Assembly (NCBI GenBank): GCA_009869945.1
Contig: WIXG01000209.1
Location: 1 to 64,000, forward strand
Length of the DNA: 64,000 bases
Direction: 5' to 3'
From: Mesaphorura yosii
Lineage: Eukaryota > Arthropoda > Collembola > Poduromorpha > Tullbergiidae
Below the pieces are notes generated by a model. The model was not told where the DNA came from and did no database searches. It was given only the letters and a program-made list of their open reading frames with translations. How positions within the stretch are numbered: position 1 is the stretch's first letter; every line of letters begins with the position of its first letter. The position numbers and the translations under genes are program-made. Positions 10,719-54,909 of this stretch are shown one piece after another.

Positions 10719-12219
10719 TCAGTTAGACAACATGCCCACTGATCGGTGGCCGCAAGAACGCATATTTTCAAACGGCAGTAGCTTGGCAAAAATGGATCCC
10801 CTGCTTGTTCTCGGCCTTAGCGATTTCGGGACAAATTTTTCTAGCAGAAAGTTTCTCTTGTCTTTGGGCGCTCCGTATTTTACAACTTGTTCAAGGTGAT
10901 TGATGTGAAAGTACGGATACGCCCAGATTTTCCTTTGGTGATTGATTGCTTCCAGGGCGAGCAGAATCCATCTTACATTCTGGTGCATTCGATCCAACCT
11001 GTCACGACTCTCCGTAATCTTTCGGAGCAGCCTTTGTAGGGACGTTTGAAGGTCACGTGAGCATGTTGCGGAAGAGAAATTGGAACCGTTGCGCATTCGC
11101 TTGGCTTCTTCGAGAAATCTTGGCACAGTGTAGGACTGGAGCTTGTACAGCGAGTGTTTGTACGACTGATTAATCTCTAGCTTGCCCACACCTTTGAAAC
11201 CAGTATTCAACTTGTGAAATATTCTGTCCAGTAAAACGTTAGTCAGCAAGATCTTCTGTTGAGTTCCTAGTCTTTGAGTCTGGGTTTCAACGATTCTAGA
11301 CTGCTCGTCCACAGTTTGCAACGTGACATCGTGCTTCTTCCCGATAATGAAAGTTAGGAGAGACACGGACCTTGGAACTTGAGCCGTTGTAGCAGATGAA
11401 TTTTGTGTAAGCTCGGATTTGTCAGATTCTGACACCACGATTTGGGTCGCGACTGTCGAAGCTCCGTCACTCTTGCGACTTGACCTCTCGACATCCAGGA
11501 TATCTTTGTAGACATAACTATCGAGTTCTTGAAGTACGGGCTTCAGTGTCTTTAACTGCTGGAGCCCCTTTTCGACCATGTTCAAAATTGTGACGCACAA
11601 ATCCGCCACGCGTGAAAGCGAGCCAAACACGGAAAGCAGTACTTTGTAAACGTCTTTTGGTTCCGGCTCAATCCAAGACACGTGGACGCCAACCAGGTAC
11701 AAAAGAGTTGTGATGTTAACCATGTCGTAATTCTCGAGTTGAGTTAATTCTCGAGAAGGTGCGATGATTGCGTTTGATGCGACTTCAAAGACGAACTCAC
11801 ATTTCTCGACGACCGCCACAATTTCTTTGGTCAAACCAATAAATTCTTTCTGCCAACTTGGTACTTGAGATCTGCCTTGAGATGTTGGCTTTGCGCTCTT
11901 CACAAGCGTATTCCCCTTCGACGTTTGAGAGTAGCGTGAACACGTGGACAACGTGTCAGATTTGCCGTGGCCTAATTTTCGAGGAAACCAAATGTTAGGT
12001 TATGCACCTCAAACAGCCACTGAATTAAGCAACCCTGAAAGTACCGTCAAGTCTCGAAGGATCGTCGTACGCAACCACGACTTTTGACCGGGTGGAGTCA
12101 TTCTTCAAGCGTAGGAATTCGACGGTCAAATTATCGGCCTCAGTTTCTTCTGTTCCGCGGGCTTTATATCGCCTAGCGCCTCGTCTGTCCACCAGCGCAC
12201 CCTCTGACTCTGATTGCAT
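10719..12219 (-). CDS. Unrecognised helical protein
   Basis: Two exons are supported: 12219-12045 and 11971-10719, joined by a 73-base GT-AG intron that keeps frame, giving 475 residues if the TGA at 10719 is the true end. I do not recognise a family. The N-terminal 60 residues are charged (MQSESEGALVDRRGARRYK). The rest reads as long amphipathic helices with many Leu/Val/Ile heptad-like spacings, a Ser/Thr-rich break near residue 230 and a basic C-terminus. No signal peptide or membrane helix is evident. The start at 12219 is the first Met in the exon, but a tag just before it could be a splice acceptor, so further 5' exons are possible. The 3' end is also uncertain, because coding-like exons follow at 10619-10165. 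The second exon alone is a 1.25 kb open frame, too long to be chance. Confidence 0.6.
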
Positions 12220-44270: not shown

Positions 44271-46613
44271 TCACCATTGCTGACGAATAAACTCTCCTTG
44301 CGGCTTTTCGAAGATCCCTTCGTCATAAATGACATTACCTCGGAGAATAGTTTTGTACACTTTGCCAAAGAACTTCATTCCATGATACGGTGTCAGCTTT
44401 CGCAGAGAAAGATCGTTAAGTTAGACAGTGCGGTGTCGCAAAACATCTGCGCATGGAAATAATTAAGTTGTTGGCATTACCTTATTCTTGAAATGAATGA
44501 ACTTCCCTTCAATCTGCGCAAGGAATTACATAGATGAGTTTAAGAAAATTCGAAGCAACGCAGCTAGGGCATGAATCTCGACATTTTTTGTTCTCGAAAA
44601 ACGTCGAGAATTATTAAATCTTAAATTTTCGAAAATCCATGCGAACGAAATTTTCGAGATTCTCGTTTCTCGAAAATAACATTCTTGAGCCGATTTTGAT
44701 TCTCGAATTCTCGATACATTTTCTCGAAATTCTCGTGTGCTGTTCTGCTCAAATCAACACGAACATGAGCATGTGAGCTGTGAGAAAAGTGAAGAATGTT
44801 AGCAACTAGATGAATTCAGAGTCGAAGTATAAAACGCATTTAATTATTTACAATTTAGAAATAAATGTGCGTGTCGAGTGTCATCTAAGTTCCTGCTTTA
44901 TTTCCCTGACCAGATTGAACCTGTCCAAGAATTCGAGTTTCTCGCATCGAGAATCTCGGTTCTCGACATTTTCAAAGCTGGCAAATTTCGAGAATCTCGT
45001 TTCTCGAAAATCCAATTCTCGAGCCGAGATTCATGCCCTAAACGCAGCGATGGGAGTATTTACCTTAATGTCCTCATCCGGCTCCCAAACGACGAAATCC
45101 GCATCGTACCCAATCTTGATGTGACATTTATGGTTATCAATGCCTGCCAACTTGCCCGTGTTCAAACTCATCCAGCGCCAGACATCTTCTACCAAGTGCC
45201 CGCGTTGACGAGCGTTCGTCCAAACGACAGGCAATCCTGCGGACAATGAAGGCAGTAGTCAATAATTGAGCACATGTGAGTTCATGCGGCACAATTACCA
45301 AATTGAAGCCCGGCAATTCCGCCCCATGACTTGATGAAATCCCTTGGCTTATGGCACGGCGTGCAATTAGCATGATCAGCAGCAATCGAGTCGATAAGCC
45401 CATCTGCTAGTCCACGCCACAGCTTCTCACGGTTATACGCATCTCGAATCGGTGGCAAAGCCAAGTATTCGGTCCACCCGGTGCCAATGTCCTCGTCAGA
45501 GAAATGCAAATAATGCGGGCACGTCTCGACCGTAAGTGGGAACCCATCTGCCTTCAATTTCTCAATGATCGGCAATGCATCGGTCGCCGAAAGGTGCACG
45601 ATGTGAACGCGGACGCCCCTTGCAAGGAGAAAGCAATTGTACCCAAATCATCGAAATGTTAAGGATATTTTATACCAACTCACTTGTGCTTTCTCATGAC
45701 CCTATCAATCATTTCAATAGCCTTGACTTCCATCGACGGTGGTCTCCACTCCAGAACCGTCTTGTAGTGCTCAACATTCTCTGTCGGATCATCATCGCCC
45801 GATGGAACCTCAGCATGAACCTGGCATTAAAGAGATGGTAAGCAATCATGGACCTGGCGTAGGATAGGGAATTCATTGACGCTTAGAATGGCAATACCTG
45901 CAAGACACTGCCGGTTCCTTCCAGAGTTTCAAGCGCCTCGTCAAGTGATTGTTCGTCCAAGTGCGGAAACTCGTCGAATCCGGTACTAATTAAGAAGCAC
46001 TTGAAGCCACAGACTCCCATACCCAAGAGTTCCTTCATGTCGCTCTGTTGCAGCAAGAAAATAAACTCGTAAAGACAAGAGCCAGATCGTAACAGAAATC
46101 ACGGTATTGTGCGTACCGGATTTCCAATTGCACCACCCCAGAATCCAACATCGACATGGCAGTTTCCCTGCGCAGCCTGCAGTTTCAAGTTGAAATTGTC
46201 AACTGTTGTGGTCGGTGGGCTGCACTGTAGAGGCATGTCGATAATGCTGGTGAATCCTCCAGCAGCCGCGGCGCGCGTGGCAGTGTAAAATCCTTCCCAA
46301 TCGGTTCGGCCAGGCTCGTCGACATGCGTGTGGGTATCCACCAGCCCCGGCATAATCACCTTAGTTCCAGCATCGAGAACCTGGGTGGCACACATTTGGT
46401 GATTTAGGAGTACTTTGTATATCCACCCATGCATTTGGTAATTATTCGTAGCAGCAGCGGAAAGAAAAATACCTGAGCCGGTGCGACGTCCGACAAGTCC
46501 ATTTCATAGTCGAAGTAAATATTCGCAACTTTGCCATCTGCGACTTCAATGACTGCAGGCGTCAGTTCACCATCGATGAGAACATTCGTGCTCCTTATGA
46601 ATTGAAACGACAT
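44271..46613 (-). CDS. ALN: Allantoinase
   Basis: Zinc amidohydrolase that opens the hydantoin ring of allantoin to allantoate, in purine/urate breakdown. Eight minus-strand exons: 46613-46473, 46380-46117, 46044-45898, 45820-45684, 45618-45299, 45236-45064, 44513-44481 and 44396-44271; 446 residues. The metal-binding [15 protein letters not shown] (His64, His66) is the allantoinase/dihydroorotase signature. MGVCGFKCF holds the likely carbamylated lysine (about K150); [29 protein letters not shown] and [10 protein letters not shown] complete the active site in family order. [23 protein letters not shown] is the C-terminal signature. Loss of this gene in many animals makes its presence useful for taxonomy. 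Intron 6 (45063-44514) carries a MITE. Confidence 0.95.
44565..45040. mobile_element. hAT-type MITE in allantoinase intron 6
   Basis: A 476-base element with perfect 16-bp terminal inverted repeats, TAGGGCATGAATCTCG at 44565-44580 and its complement at 45025-45040, flanked by an 8-bp direct duplication AACGCAGC at 44557-44564 and 45041-45048. The 8-bp duplication and a TAGGG terminus are hAT hallmarks. The interior has no open frame of transposase size and is packed with TCTCGAAA-type words in both orientations, so it is non-autonomous. Removing the element and one duplicate leaves an intron of 66 bases, the normal size here. Confidence 0.85.
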
Positions 46614-47721: not shown

Positions 47722-50700
47722 TCACGGAGGACAGGGCGATGAAGATGGAGAGGACGAGTCCAGTTTATTGTTATTCTCTGGTGGACAACTACTGTTCGAA
47801 GTATCCGATAATGGTGTGTCAGGTGTTTTGGGAGATGTTCCATTACACGGAGTGATTGAATCGCTCGGTATCAGACCCTCCTTCATACGCTTCTTTTGTT
47901 TCATCCGACGATTCTGAAACCATATTTTCACCTGAAAGGAGGAAGTAACAGATTCTGTCAATTACAATTACACAAAATACTCGAGAAAACGTTTCGGAAG
48001 AAATTCCACAGGAATTCATCCATCAACCCAGGCACTTGTGCGTGGTTGGCGTTGTTGGAGAGTACGCACCTGAGTTTCATTCAGTTGTAAGGCAGAAGCT
48101 ATTTCTATCCTTCGTGCTCTGGTTAGGTACTTGTTGAAATGAAATTCCTTCTCCAACTCAGTTAACTGCTTTGTTGTGAAGTTGGTTCGGCCCGCAGCTC
48201 CACCAACGCCAACTCCACCAGTGATATGATTGAGACCAAGCAGCGTGTTGTTCATGTGGATACTCCCCGTGGTGGGCGACACAACTCCTCCACTGCCGTT
48301 GTGGCTGTATTCGCTTCGGGTGGACACTGCAACAGGACAACATGAAGCATGATAATTAGAGTAGGACAGAAAGTCAGAAATATGAGCCAACTAAGTTATG
48401 ATTGAAATTCCGTCTAATTAAGTAATTAACCCAGCCTAGCCTATGTGTGTGCGCTGTGACCATCGCTAACGAACGTGAAAATTAAAAAAAAATTGTCTCA
48501 AACACCAGCTGCAAAAAGTCTGTCACGACGAGCAAAACAACTTCAACGACCACACGACATCAAAACCTCGTTAATCAATTAAAATTTAATTTGATTATTT
48601 TATGCCCCATTTTTTACATTGCACGGGTGTCAAACTTCCCAATAACATACCTTTGATTCAGCATTCGAGAAGAGTGCTTTTTCATTCTACTGGCTGAAAT
48701 TTTTAACTGAAATGAATCTTAGTCATTGCATCGCATCTAATAGCCGCAATTCCCAACTCGCCACCTTGTGGCGTAGCAAATTAATGCCCTACGCTAAGAT
48801 GGCACATTTCTCTTCATCCATTTTGTCCCGGTATTCCATGCTTCCCTTTCATTGCCCCGTCCTGTACATTTTGATTTGTGAAAAGTTTTTTCTTTCTCGA
48901 TCCTGTCAACTTGAAAGGCAATCCGGAGCGAACCCGTGCGCACCAGGGAAAACGTATTTTAATCTCATGCCTTCATGTTTTCCCAAATACATTTTCAATT
49001 ACAGAATCCATTCGGTTCAGATTCCGACTCAAAGAACCACGTCGGACTCGGATGGACTTTGCACGAAAGTTTTTCATCTTGCCTGCCCGTCTGTCTATTA
49101 TATCCCATCTTTCTCATCTTGTACAGTCTACGTCCACTGCTGATCTGGAGTTCCGACTTCAATGCAGTAAAACGAGCGTCCGTGTCCGCGCTTGCCTGCC
49201 TGGACAGAACACTGAATGGCCTAGCTACCTTCGCACGGGGCGAAACTGTACCCGAATCCACTGCCATATGTACAAAGTATTTTATAGGCTTTTACGTTTT
49301 CATTTGAGTGAGTACAAGAAAGCAGCCTGCCTGATCCTGAGAGAGAGTTTTTCGACATGGTTTTGGACCCCATCCATCATTCGCTTGGACAACGCGATAG
49401 TCAGAGTTTGTAATTCAGAGAAAACTATTACAATGGAATATTTTTTCTCTCCTTCGCCTGCCTCTCGTTCTACCTTTTATGTGAAATTACTACATGCGCC
49501 AGAGTACGGTAGAGTTAAGAGATACAAAGGGAAGAAAGAAAGAACTTCCAAACAGAAAATATGTTGGCTAAAAGCAATGCAATGCGCCACGCAAATGCAA
49601 GCAATGTGGAAATGACAGACACAAAGAATTTTCAGTAGGAGGCGAAAGAGCAAATACATAAATGGAAATGAAATGACTGTGGTTCCTCACGCTAAGGCCG
49701 CGACTGACAAACACATTTTAATTGTTGTAGTTAGATTAATCTTTAACACGGCCATCACGTCGATATTTAAGCATTTTTAGCATGCGCCGTTCTGTCGTAA
49801 CATTTCCAAAGTCTAATCATTAATTTCGCATTTTAGGACATCACAATCGGGACCCAATCAAAGCAAATGATTGCAAATCTTTAAGCACAAAATCCCAACG
49901 AATAGCATTCATTTTGGTGTCCAGCTTCAGTCAAACTTGCGATAAATAATGCTAAGTACAAATTATTTGAATCAAAAGTAGTCTCACGTAGCAAGAAGAG
50001 GAAGTTCCCTTACTTAGTTTCTGAATCTGTTCAAGCGAAATCATGAATGGACGGCTGCGCCTGACGTCTTGGCCAGCATATGCAAGCTCGACTCTGCTTT
50101 TCCAGCGAAGAGATTATATCGGACTCGCACAGTGGACAAATTGAACCCAACGAGCGGAACCTCTTTCTCTGTACAGACTAAAAGTAAATTCGCTTCTCGC
50201 TTGCCAGGCAGCAAGAAAAGGAACATAAATAAATTGTCAGAAAAAGTTCCTTGCTGAATATTGAGTAAAAATCAGGTCACCTGTGCCACGATTTAATAAT
50301 TCGATTAATCTTACAAAGGTTATAATTAAATCTGCGATTAAAGTTTCATTGCGCAGCCAAAATCTTTCCTGCATTTCGCCGCATTTTATAAAGATTGAGT
50401 AGATTGAATTGTAAAGTGCGGAAGAATTGCAGGATTACCACGCTACCGTTGACCAACGTCCAGTATTAGTGCGGCTGGACTGACCACGTAATAAAATATC
50501 TCCCCGACTTATCTTGACTTGACTTGACTTGAACGAGAACTCGAGAACGTACGACAAAAAGTTGCTCACATAGTTGATATGATCACTGCTGCTGCCGTAT
50601 TATTAACTACTTCACAAGCATACGACCGACCAGAAAAATCGGGTTGTTCAGGATATACGGTCAGTATAAGTTTCTGCTTTATACTTTGAGTTTCTTATCT

Positions 50701-53700
50701 GCTTCGTCGTCAGTGCACAGTCATTTTTACGCGCTCGCGTAATATATGACACACTTTGATAACAGGCTATTACAACAGCTCTCCTGCACGCTGCAGCGAC
50801 TACCGTGACTGGTGACTGTGGCTTGGCCGTGCACAAGTCAGGCAGCACGAGTCCAATTATTTTATTGATCTTTAAAGGGTTGAGTTCATACAGTTTAATA
50901 ATCTCGGGCTTTTATTACTTTACATTCGCATGCAATGCACGCACAAGGCGAAAAACTCAAACTACAATCAAAGCTCTGCACGGACACTGAGCAAGAATGC
51001 AAATGTGTTGCTGGACACAGAAAAAACTGAAAACAGCAACAAACATAAAATCGTTAAGCCACAGCTTTCATATTAGCATACGAGCGGACTTTTATTTATA
51101 TTCAACGCAGACTGCTCAAGACAAGGAACAGAGTTTTGCAATTTTGAGCCAGGCAACCACATATTTCTTATTTTGCATTCGTTATCAGTTGTTTACGCCA
51201 TGGCTCTGCGTGAAGTCGAGTTCTTTGGCTTTTCTAGACTGAAAACTTGATTTAATCGCGTTTATTACCTGGTGATTAGAAGGCTCTATGCTCTCAAGCC
51301 AAAAGCTCCTGCATTGCACAGTACAAATCGCAACCCAGTCTTCCATGTTTTCAATTCCAAATGCCAACCCCATTTCCAAATCATCTTTGTGCCGTGCCAT
51401 GCCGTGCCAGGCCATGAATACATTTTCCTTTTCTTCCAAGCACGCCCATGACACCCTGGGAGAAGCAGTGGTGACAAATGGCTGACAAAAGAGCTTGTTC
51501 AACAAATATTTCCTCTCTAAACAATTCTCCCGCTGTTTTCGTGGTCCTTTGCTTTGAAAACTTCCTGGTCTGCACCGCTCTATACTGTATTGTAACCATC
51601 AAATCGGATTACATGGATTTTAGAATTTCATGCCCCATGTTTAAGAGGATGACTTGGCAATTTTCTCCTTCTTTTTGGGTGTGTGGTACAAAGCTATGAT
51701 CGTGATCTTTGAGCTTGTCATGATTTGTTCAGAACCCAGCCAAGGGATGTTTTCCACACATTTCGAAAAGCGATTATTTCTTTCATGAAGGGCGTTTCTA
51801 CGTTTCCGATAAGGCTTGTAATTTATGAAATTTTCATACATTTTTTTTTATTTTCATAAATGTTCTGCTCAGAGTTAAAAATCGGGTTCTCGAATAAAGT
51901 AGAGGGAAACGCCGCTTCATATATGCTTGCATCAGAACGAAATGCAAGAGGACTCACAGGTTGACATAGAGATTATTGTCTCGTCATAGTGGTGACTCTT
52001 TGACGAATTTGTCTTTAGACATTTTTGACAGTTGCAAATTAGTTTGAAGGGTGGTCCTTGCCTCTTGATTTGACTTTATCTTCTTAGTAAGAATTTATGC
52101 AAGGTTGTCAAAGTTAAAATCAACAGATGCTGAACGAGTTAGTTACTACTAAAATCTTATCAGACCTAAAGTGGTTCTCGGCTCTTACACTTCGAAATTC
52201 CTATCCACCGCTTCTCTGTAGCATTCAACTTCGAATTCCGGCGAGAGTTGAACTATGCCTCGGCTTCAGCATACCGTTTCAAGGGTTTGCACTGACGTCG
52301 ACTACTGACACAGAGACGGAATCCATTTCTCAAGGAAAGGAGCATAAAAGTCAATGAAAATTAAGCCCGACAAAAGAAACCTCGTGAGCAGCAGTCAGCG
52401 TCTGCGATTGTAAAAGACAATTCATGTCATCGTCGTTTTGTTTAATTGTAAATCATATCTCAATGACTGCCACTGCCTTTGCCAAGTTAAGCAGTTAAGA
52501 CAAGACAGGGCAAGGCCCAAAAAGGTAGAAAGTAACTACAAGTAGCACTAAAGTGCTGTCGCTGTGCGCTGCTTGCTGCGGCTGTCAGAGGAAAATGAGT
52601 CAGGCAAAATGACGACATGACGCGATAATGCAAACGTTACTCAGACAAGTGACAATGAAATGATATTGATATCAACCATCAAAAAAATCCTATTTACAAG
52701 TACGAACGCACCCACAGACAGACAAACAGGCAGCTTGAGCCAGATAAAATGAAGCATGGAAGTAGGTTCAGCTCTGACATGAAAAGTTGGACGAACATTT
52801 ATATTACGAAACGAATGCAAAACAACAGATTTGATTAACACTTTGATAATCGAGGATTACAAGATCCAATGGCGAATACTGCGAATAGTAGCTTCGCGCT
52901 CGTGCACGGACTGTTTCATATGCAAATTGATTTGACAAACCCAAGCACTTTAAGCTGAGAGCAAGCGACCAAGTGTCCAAGCACCTGATTTTTCCAGTTT
53001 TCTGAATTTTGTAATTGTTTTCAGCATAATTTTATCATTATGAGTAAATATACTTTCGGCCAACGGAGTGCTTACGTGATGCAGGTGCGTCTGAAGTCTG
53101 ATAACTGATTGACATCATAAACACGGACTATTTTTGCTTTGGCACTTGAAAACTTGAAACTCATTCTGCACTTCGCGATAATTTAAGTTTAGCCTGTGAG
53201 TTAAGTTTGCGGTCGATGTTACATTGTGTGTGAATGCGGCCGCGTGCAGCCTTTTGATCATTAACTTTTGGACCTTTGGTGGACTTAAGCACCACGTTTT
53301 GTAAATAGTAAATAGCGCGTTTTATGCGTTTTCAATTCTCAAATCAAGAGCACAAGTACCATGAAGTTGATGCGCATATACGTTCAGCCGGAATCTGCGG
53401 ATGTGCATCCTTAATTCAAAGGATGCTTAATTAAAGCCTTAACAATTGAAAGAAATGCTTACCTTGTGGGTACGGTGGTTTAGGAACGTTTCTCTTCACT
53501 TGCATCCATTTGTAGGTTGGAACATTAGAGTTTGATGGCTGCTGCTGTTGAGACAAAGACGGTTCTTGCTTAAAATCTTGCAGCCCACTCCCGTTAAGTG
53601 TGCTGTTGCTGGTTCCGCTAAGATTGTGTGGATGTTGCAGGTTGGGTTCGGTCTTAATGAAGGGAACGTGCTGCTGGTGTTGCTGAAGATCACCTGCACT

Positions 53701-54909
53701 GACACCACCATTGAGATCTAGCCGTAAAGGATCTACTCCAATTATTGTGTTGTGGCTGCCATTGATGCCAATGTTGTTACTGTGATGGTGGTGCAGGTGG
53801 TAATGGAAGTTATTTGACGGTGGGATCAAGTTACTTCCGCCACTGATATTCTGTGAATTATGAGATGCCGAATGTTGATGAGCCAGAAGTGACGCTGAGG
53901 ATGCCGTAATTGGTGAAGATGACATGAGACAAGAACTCTGATTTGCGGGGTTGCTCGCGCTGCTGACCGCGCCCGGAGAATTGTTGGGGTTGTTGAAATG
54001 GACTACACTTCCATAAGTGGCTGATGCCGAAGACATTTCGCAGTGGTTCAACTGATGCTGAAGATGCTGATTGTGATGCTGGAAGAGTTGCGGTGGAGGA
54101 AGCAGTGACAGATTGCCGTGACTGTGGTCAGCAACCCCGTCATTGCTGTTGTTCCCGCTTTCGGTGCTGTTGCTTCGGCTATCTATGCCATTCACGTTTT
54201 GTGATTTGGAAAAATCGTGAAATTGATGGTGGCCGTACAAATTAGCCGAAGGTTGGTGGCCATACTCGGGTGGAGTGACTGAGGTCGGGTGGGCTTGGTG
54301 GAGGTGAATGGGATCTGGTGTGATAATCTCGTAGGGTGGCGGTGGGGCATGATGATACAGCGGATGATGGTACCCGTGGTGGGCAGCCGCCTGATTGTAT
54401 GCGCCAGCATTTGTTGTGTCTAAATTGGTGTAGCTGAGCCCATCAATTCCCACTAGCGACTCATTTGAAGTCGACGCGGAAGTCGAGAAACTGCTGCTGT
54501 AGTAATCGATCGCTGAACCGGCCGAATTCGACTGGGGATGATGACTGTAGTACGACGATGTCGTCGACGGGACCGGAACCGGCGGTGAGGAATTTGAGAA
54601 ACTTGCTGAGCTCGAGGTGGTCATTGCCAAAGGTGAACTGCTGGGACTATTTCGGTGAGAATGTTGGTGCATGTGGTGTTGCGGATGCACAAATTCACTA
54701 GTCGGTGGAGATTCATTTGATGATGATGAGTAGTAATTAGCCTGGCGATACTGAAAGAGAAAATTGTCATGAACCGAATGAGGGTTTGAGGACCTACAAC
54801 GATTTTCGATATACTGAGGTGTGTTTACTTGTTGGTGCACTGTCATTCCTCCTGCAGTGGCAGCAACCGGGTTAGATAGTCCATAAATCATGCTTGACGA
54901 TGAACTCAT
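47722..54909 (-). CDS. lab: Hox transcription factor labial (Hox1)
   Basis: Anterior Hox protein that patterns the intercalary/head region with Exd/PBC cofactors. Three minus-strand exons: 54909-53463, 48326-48070 and 47931-47722; 637 residues. Exon 1 is a His/Ser/Asn-rich activation region ending in the hexapeptide [14 protein letters not shown] (YKWM at about 466-469), the labial-type PBC contact. The homeodomain (about 525-584) reads [28 protein letters not shown] then [11 protein letters not shown] and [22 protein letters not shown], the Hox1/labial class. An intron separates homeodomain positions 44 and 45 (Q/V), a place where other labial genes are also split. The first intron is 5136 bases, far longer than any other here. 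Start at 54909 is the first Met of the exon. The tail is Ser/Pro-rich. Confidence 0.97.
48327..53462. other. Large first intron of labial
   Basis: 5.1 kb of mostly AT-rich sequence. It contains an AT-rich near-palindrome with TAAT/ATTA homeodomain-core words at about 48569-48600, a pyrimidine-rich stretch with a long plus-strand open frame at 48878-49615, a CTTGA/TTGAC microsatellite at 50513-50531 and GTGCCATGCC-type repeats at 51390-51415. Long introns in Hox genes often hold enhancers; which parts act here cannot be read from one sequence. Confidence 0.5.
50513..50531. repeat. CTTGA microsatellite
   Basis: Perfect tandem copies of the five-base unit CTTGA (about 3.8 units), inside the labial first intron. 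Shorter copies of the same cttgactt word recur near 59467 and 63778. Confidence 0.7.

Follow-up and report, generated by a model that had tools for sequence, protein, structure and literature searches.

In the maize Ac/Ds system, a hAT transposase with a BED finger mobilises internally deleted copies in trans, and its binding sites are repeated in the subterminal regions. The termini of hAT elements start with a T/CAGNG-like sequence, the target-site duplication of Ac follows the consensus nTnnnnAn, and incomplete repair copying is thought to be the origin of hAT and P-type deletion derivatives. Mar, a hAT MITE family of the Drosophila willistoni subgroup (PMC3517528), is a short, coding-free element with terminal repeats of 11 bp (CAG(G/A)GGTAGGC) and 8-bp duplications of the Buster type, consensus nnnTAnnn, with 93 sequences in D. 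willistoni. Longer relic copies of Mar with transposase remnants suggest that this MITE originated by internal deletion, an origin for which that study argues. In Herves, a hAT transposon of Anopheles gambiae, the purified transposase binds to a short subterminal motif, CG/AATTCAT, at both ends (PMC3143072).

We analyzed a window of 64,000 nucleotides, positions 1 to 64,000 of contig WIXG01000209.1 (C209) of the collembolan Mesaphorura yosii, in which an element of this type lies within the allantoinase gene (Table 1). The element resembles Mar in that it is short and coding-free, carries terminal repeats and 8-bp duplications, and has a longer relative with transposase remnants. It differs from Mar in its two copies found, in its 16-bp termini and in its duplication, which is not of the nnnTAnnn form. 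With Herves it shares a short repeated subterminal motif; in place of CG/AATTCAT, the putative binding words here are TCTCGA/TCGAGA. Whereas Ac is autonomous and present in maize, no autonomous partner was found here near 32 of 39 hAT domains. We consider it very likely that the element, which is non-autonomous, derives by internal deletion from a low-copy hAT transposon of the BED-finger type and that it was inserted by cut and paste.

Table 1. Features of the element, of its insertion site and of the host gene, in coordinates of the window
Feature	Position	Strand	Remarks
Non-autonomous hAT-type element (very likely an internal-deletion derivative)	44565..45040	+	476 bp
Left terminal inverted repeat TAGGGCATGAATCTCG	44565..44580	+	corresponds to the C644 end upstream of the transposase-like frame
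Right terminal inverted repeat	45025..45040	-	complement of the left terminus
Target-site duplication, copy 1, AACGCAGC	44557..44564	.	same letters as 45041-45048
Target-site duplication, copy 2, AACGCAGC	45041..45048	.	same letters as 44557-44564
Left part common to element and C644 copy	44568..44783	+	194/232 alignment columns identical (84%), one 16-column gap
Right end common to element and C644 copy	44983..45040	+	55/58 identical (95%)
Middle part, without match elsewhere in the genome	44784..44925	.	query spanned 44784-44984
Left subterminal cluster of TCTCGA/TCGAGA/TTCTCG/CGAGAA words	44576..44735	.	word positions; putative transposase-binding sites
Right subterminal cluster of TCTCGA/TCGAGA/TTCTCG/CGAGAA words	44939..45022	.	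word positions
Allantoinase gene	44271..46613	-	8 exons, 446 aa, frame intact after splicing
Allantoinase intron 6	44514..45063	-	550 nt, GT...AG

The two termini are complementary at 16/16 positions, the match being lost at base 17, and the 8-bp duplication is exact (8/8, AACGCAGC on both sides). When the window was scanned for perfect termini of at least 10 bp, spaced by 60-6000 bp and bordered by an exact 8-bp duplication, the element was the only place found. The same scan of 40 first-order Markov windows yielded 0 places with perfect termini at 10, 12 or 16 bp, and 18 and 15 places with looser termini (10 bp with 1 mismatch and 12 bp with 2 mismatches, respectively). Only perfect termini are thus decisive, since looser ones arise by chance in the 40 controls. 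The idea that an inverted repeat and a duplication coincide here by chance, or that the structure is an assembly artefact, is refuted by these controls (0/40) and by a second copy that has the same ends and its own duplication at another site. Nothing was found in favor of this idea, and we give it practically no credence.

The interior of the element lacks a transposase: its longest stop-free run is 77 codons, and a mechanically called frame of 123 aa (44878-45249) leaves the element into the flank. A Pfam scan of two stretches of the element and an Rfam scan of the window at gathering scores gave no match; a plasmid collection also gave none, as expected for an animal transposon. Being short (476 bp), coding-free and bounded by inverted termini and a duplication, the element has the structure of a MITE. 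The perfect 16-bp termini, the exact 8-bp duplication and the absence of coding capacity had all been claimed in an earlier note made from the letters of the window, and each was confirmed. The middle part contains AATAAA on the plus strand at 44860 and on the minus strand at 44902. The right end (44983-45041) is repeated directly at 44649-44707, with 80% identity over 59 nt, so that the left end of the element contains a second, internal version of the block next to the right terminus.

A DNA search of the 93.0-Mb genome (1127 contigs) with the whole element returned, apart from the element, two stretches of contig C644 that represent the left and right ends of a single copy of 1.3 kb. Without gaps, the window and C644 copies differ by about 10% on the left (22/216) and by 5% on the right (3/58). 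Over 16 bp, the right terminus of the C644 copy is exact and the left one has 3 mismatches; the flanks GTTTGGTG and ATTTGGTG form an imperfect 8-bp duplication (7/8). Between the ends, one frame encodes a BED zinc finger (PF02892, E 5.7e-9), and further transposase-like segments follow in shifted and interrupted frames. These segments show 49-57% identity to a locus on C630, which also has a BED finger, and 40-48% identity to a locus on C851, at which neighbouring frames carry PF02892 and PF05699 (Dimer_Tnp_hAT), both above the cut-off. Compared with Pfam directly, the transposase-like segments of C644 gave no hAT-specific match, and the BED finger alone exceeded the cut-off; VPS53_C (E 0.0017) and DUF7296 (E 0.047), both of them unrelated models, remained below theirs. 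The C630 relative, the closest at the protein level, gave a weak DUF659 match (15.4 bits, cut-off 34.7), and a scan of 5.7 kb at this locus revealed no convincing termini. A search of the PDB with a piece of the transposase returned one match at chance level (E 0.71). The genome has at least 39 Dimer_Tnp_hAT matches, none of them on C644, and therefore the C644 element is itself broken and deleted. Weaker protein relatives were observed on C54, C80 and C11.

Independent evidence that the ends of the element belong to a hAT transposon comes from the C644 copy, which has a BED finger together with segments related to the C851 locus with its Dimer_Tnp_hAT domain. BED fingers also occur outside hAT, and the connection to a hAT transposase with the same ends is indirect, leading from C644 by similarity to C630 and C851 and from there to the Dimer_Tnp_hAT domain of C851. 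Two further features are those of hAT elements: the short inverted termini (16/16) start with TAGGG, and the target-site duplications are of 8 bp (8/8 in the window, 7/8 on C644). The earlier note had assigned the element to hAT from its termini, an assignment now supported by the BED finger, the C851-related segments and the two 8-bp duplications. The duplicated sequences, two sites only, fit neither nTnnnnAn nor nnnTAnnn. A search with the 201 bp at 44784-44984 found the window alone in the genome at E values up to 10; since this segment has no other match, its derivation from an autonomous parent is assumed.

The subterminal regions are rich in short words. TTCTCG/CGAGAA occurs 14 times in the element (11 and 3 in the two directions) against 0.48 expected from the window frequency, and TCTCGA/TCGAGA occurs 13 times (9 and 4) against 0.36, an enrichment of about 30-fold over the window. 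Such words had been noticed before as running in both directions, which is the case, although unevenly. The C644 copy has equivalent clusters, which reach 10 words in 200 nt as compared with 13 in the window element. As judged from this repetition and by analogy with hAT ends, the TCTCGA/TCGAGA words are probably transposase-binding sites. Elsewhere in the window, a denser patch of 6 words was observed near 11600-11800 within an unrelated mechanical frame of 410 aa. Heat-shock elements were considered because TTCTCGAA contains TTCnnGAA, and were rejected: the element has no three-unit heat-shock element and the C644 copy has one.

The number of copies was evaluated by several searches, whose repeat counts are lower bounds, and the figure of two copies refers to those found. 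Used as a DNA query, the C644 copy returned nothing in the genome beyond itself and the window, and a 24-mer taken from the part that both copies share, allowing up to 3 mismatches, matched 2 places, the two known copies (reversed control, 0). With up to 2 mismatches, the terminus matched 37 places genome-wide, as against 19 for its reversed control. These 37 include three of the four ends of the known copies, each of them exact; the remaining end has 3 mismatches. At 17 of the other 34 places (L008-L024), no inward-facing second terminus with up to 4 mismatches was detected within 1.5 kb on each side; the opposed pairs in L015 and L018 point outwards. These 17 loci leave the excess of termini over the control without explanation. 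In a text search of the literature for the terminus TAGGGCATG, the matches listed appeared, by their titles, unrelated to transposons.

At least 39 Dimer_Tnp_hAT matches were found in the genome among 60 candidates scored. The flanks of 32 of the 39 were scanned (30 loci with flanks of up to 1.5 kb on either side, and C851 and C804), and near these 32 domains no autonomous partner was found: any 200 nt of the flanks contained 3 subterminal words or fewer, compared with 13 in the element. The autonomous member may be lacking, may have diverged too far, may lie beyond the scanned flank or may not have been assembled. The hAT population of this genome is diverse and lacks the subterminal word clusters of the element where scanned; many of the dimerisation matches lie on high-numbered contigs (for example C1101, C850, C472, C471 and C829), and several occupy open frames longer than 380 codons. 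Two other candidate hAT-type insertions were observed around hAT dimerisation domains, each with an exact 8-bp duplication: L041:1238-2143 on C940, with TAGTGCTCGCAC termini matching at 12/12, and L050:697-1959 on C675, with TAGG(A/G)TTCCGAT termini matching at 11/12. The latter pair may be a chance match, as 40 random 64-kb windows yielded 15 such pairs when up to 2 mismatches were allowed.

These counts bear on the expectation of the earlier note that the element represents a young hAT MITE family with many copies, still being mobilised. The perfect termini and duplication are what such a family would show, the terminus is more frequent than its reversed control (37 vs 19), and hAT transposase of some kind may exist, since the Dimer_Tnp_hAT matches number at least 39 and some of them lie in long open frames. 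However, the searches with the element, the C644 copy, the middle part and the 24-mer led only to C209 and C644 (lower bounds), the other copy is a broken one of 1.3 kb and not a short MITE, and the 32 hAT flanks are poor in the words of the element. Instead of many homogeneous copies, we thus found one short copy and one partly coding relative, both counts being lower bounds. The note had held that a lack of other copies would speak against its reading, and the single other copy found in 93 Mb comes close to that outcome; the autonomous hAT partner that it had also expected did not appear near the 32 domains. We regard a multi-copy family that is still mobilised as improbable, and favor the low-copy deletion derivative.

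The age of the insertion can be approached from 24 comparable positions, 16 of the terminus and 8 of the duplication. The window copy shows 0 differences and the C644 copy 4 (3 in the terminus and 1 in the duplication, read without gaps), and the window copy is therefore probably the younger insertion of the two. By our own arithmetic, 0/24 excludes only a divergence above about 12% at the 95% level. The insertion is possibly recent: its description as young in the earlier note receives weak support from these positions, and the suggestion of continued mobilisation receives none.

For the low-copy derivative, the following course of events is proposed. A hAT transposase, supplied in trans, would have recognised both ends, probably via the TCTCGA/TCGAGA subterminal words, and would have excised the internally deleted element from elsewhere. 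Insertion into the allantoinase intron at an 8-bp staggered target would have left AACGCAGC on each side. The internal deletion most likely took place earlier, by incomplete repair copying after excision. We infer that the element is now passive in the intron and would be removed with it by splicing.

The host gene is intact. Its exons were placed by eye on GT...AG, and the spliced allantoinase scored 465.5 bits against NCBIfam TIGR03178 (cut-off 357.85). The introns measure 92, 72, 77, 65, 62, 550 and 84 nt, and the element thus lies in intron 6, since the 550-nt intron is the sixth of seven. Removal of the element and of one duplicate leaves 66 nt (550 - 476 - 8), in the range of the other introns (62-92 nt), and the element lies 23 nt from the end of the exon, the donor G being at 45063; both the 66-base remainder and the distance to the 5' splice site agree with what had been stated previously.

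An effect of the element on the splicing of intron 6 is possible. A stronger proposal is that it was co-opted for the regulation of allantoinase, through a cryptic acceptor, through premature polyadenylation or through a hairpin in the RNA that alters the splicing of intron 6. On the gene strand, an acceptor-like stretch ATTCTTCACTTTTCTCACAG (13/15 pyrimidines) ends at 44778 and AATAAA starts at 44902, and the intron RNA folds at -163.5 kcal/mol against a shuffle mean of -129.5 (z -5.3, 0/100 shuffles). However, the element as DNA folds equally well (z -5.2), as any element with inverted repeats should, and the acceptor-like stretch is not kept in the C644 copy (by eye). A weaker acceptor-like stretch on the same strand, at 45038 (11/15 pyrimidines), lies 26 nt from the donor. 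We consider such co-option highly improbable, and hold just as little confidence in a regulatory cassette in which acceptor-like site, AATAAA and long hairpin would together produce an alternative or truncated allantoinase transcript. A passive insertion of the low-copy hAT derivative is preferred.

The surroundings contain other genes. A homeodomain exon (Pfam PF00046) lies at 48019-48390 on the minus strand, and a long frame with the motif YKWMQVKRN lies upstream of it (53431-54909, minus strand); together we take them to be probably a labial/Hox1 gene adjacent to allantoinase. On the plus strand, UDP-glycosyltransferase exons (Pfam PF00201) at 188-589 and 1585-2496 apparently belong to neighbouring genes.

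Taken together, the insertion is real but of an ordinary kind, that of a low-copy hAT element without autonomy. Perfect termini at a single copy and one duplication do not by themselves make a thriving MITE family. The value of the locus is mostly one of annotation: for a hAT lineage represented by only two copies found in a compact genome of 93 Mb, it provides a clean 16-bp terminus, an 8-bp duplication and a relative that is half coding.
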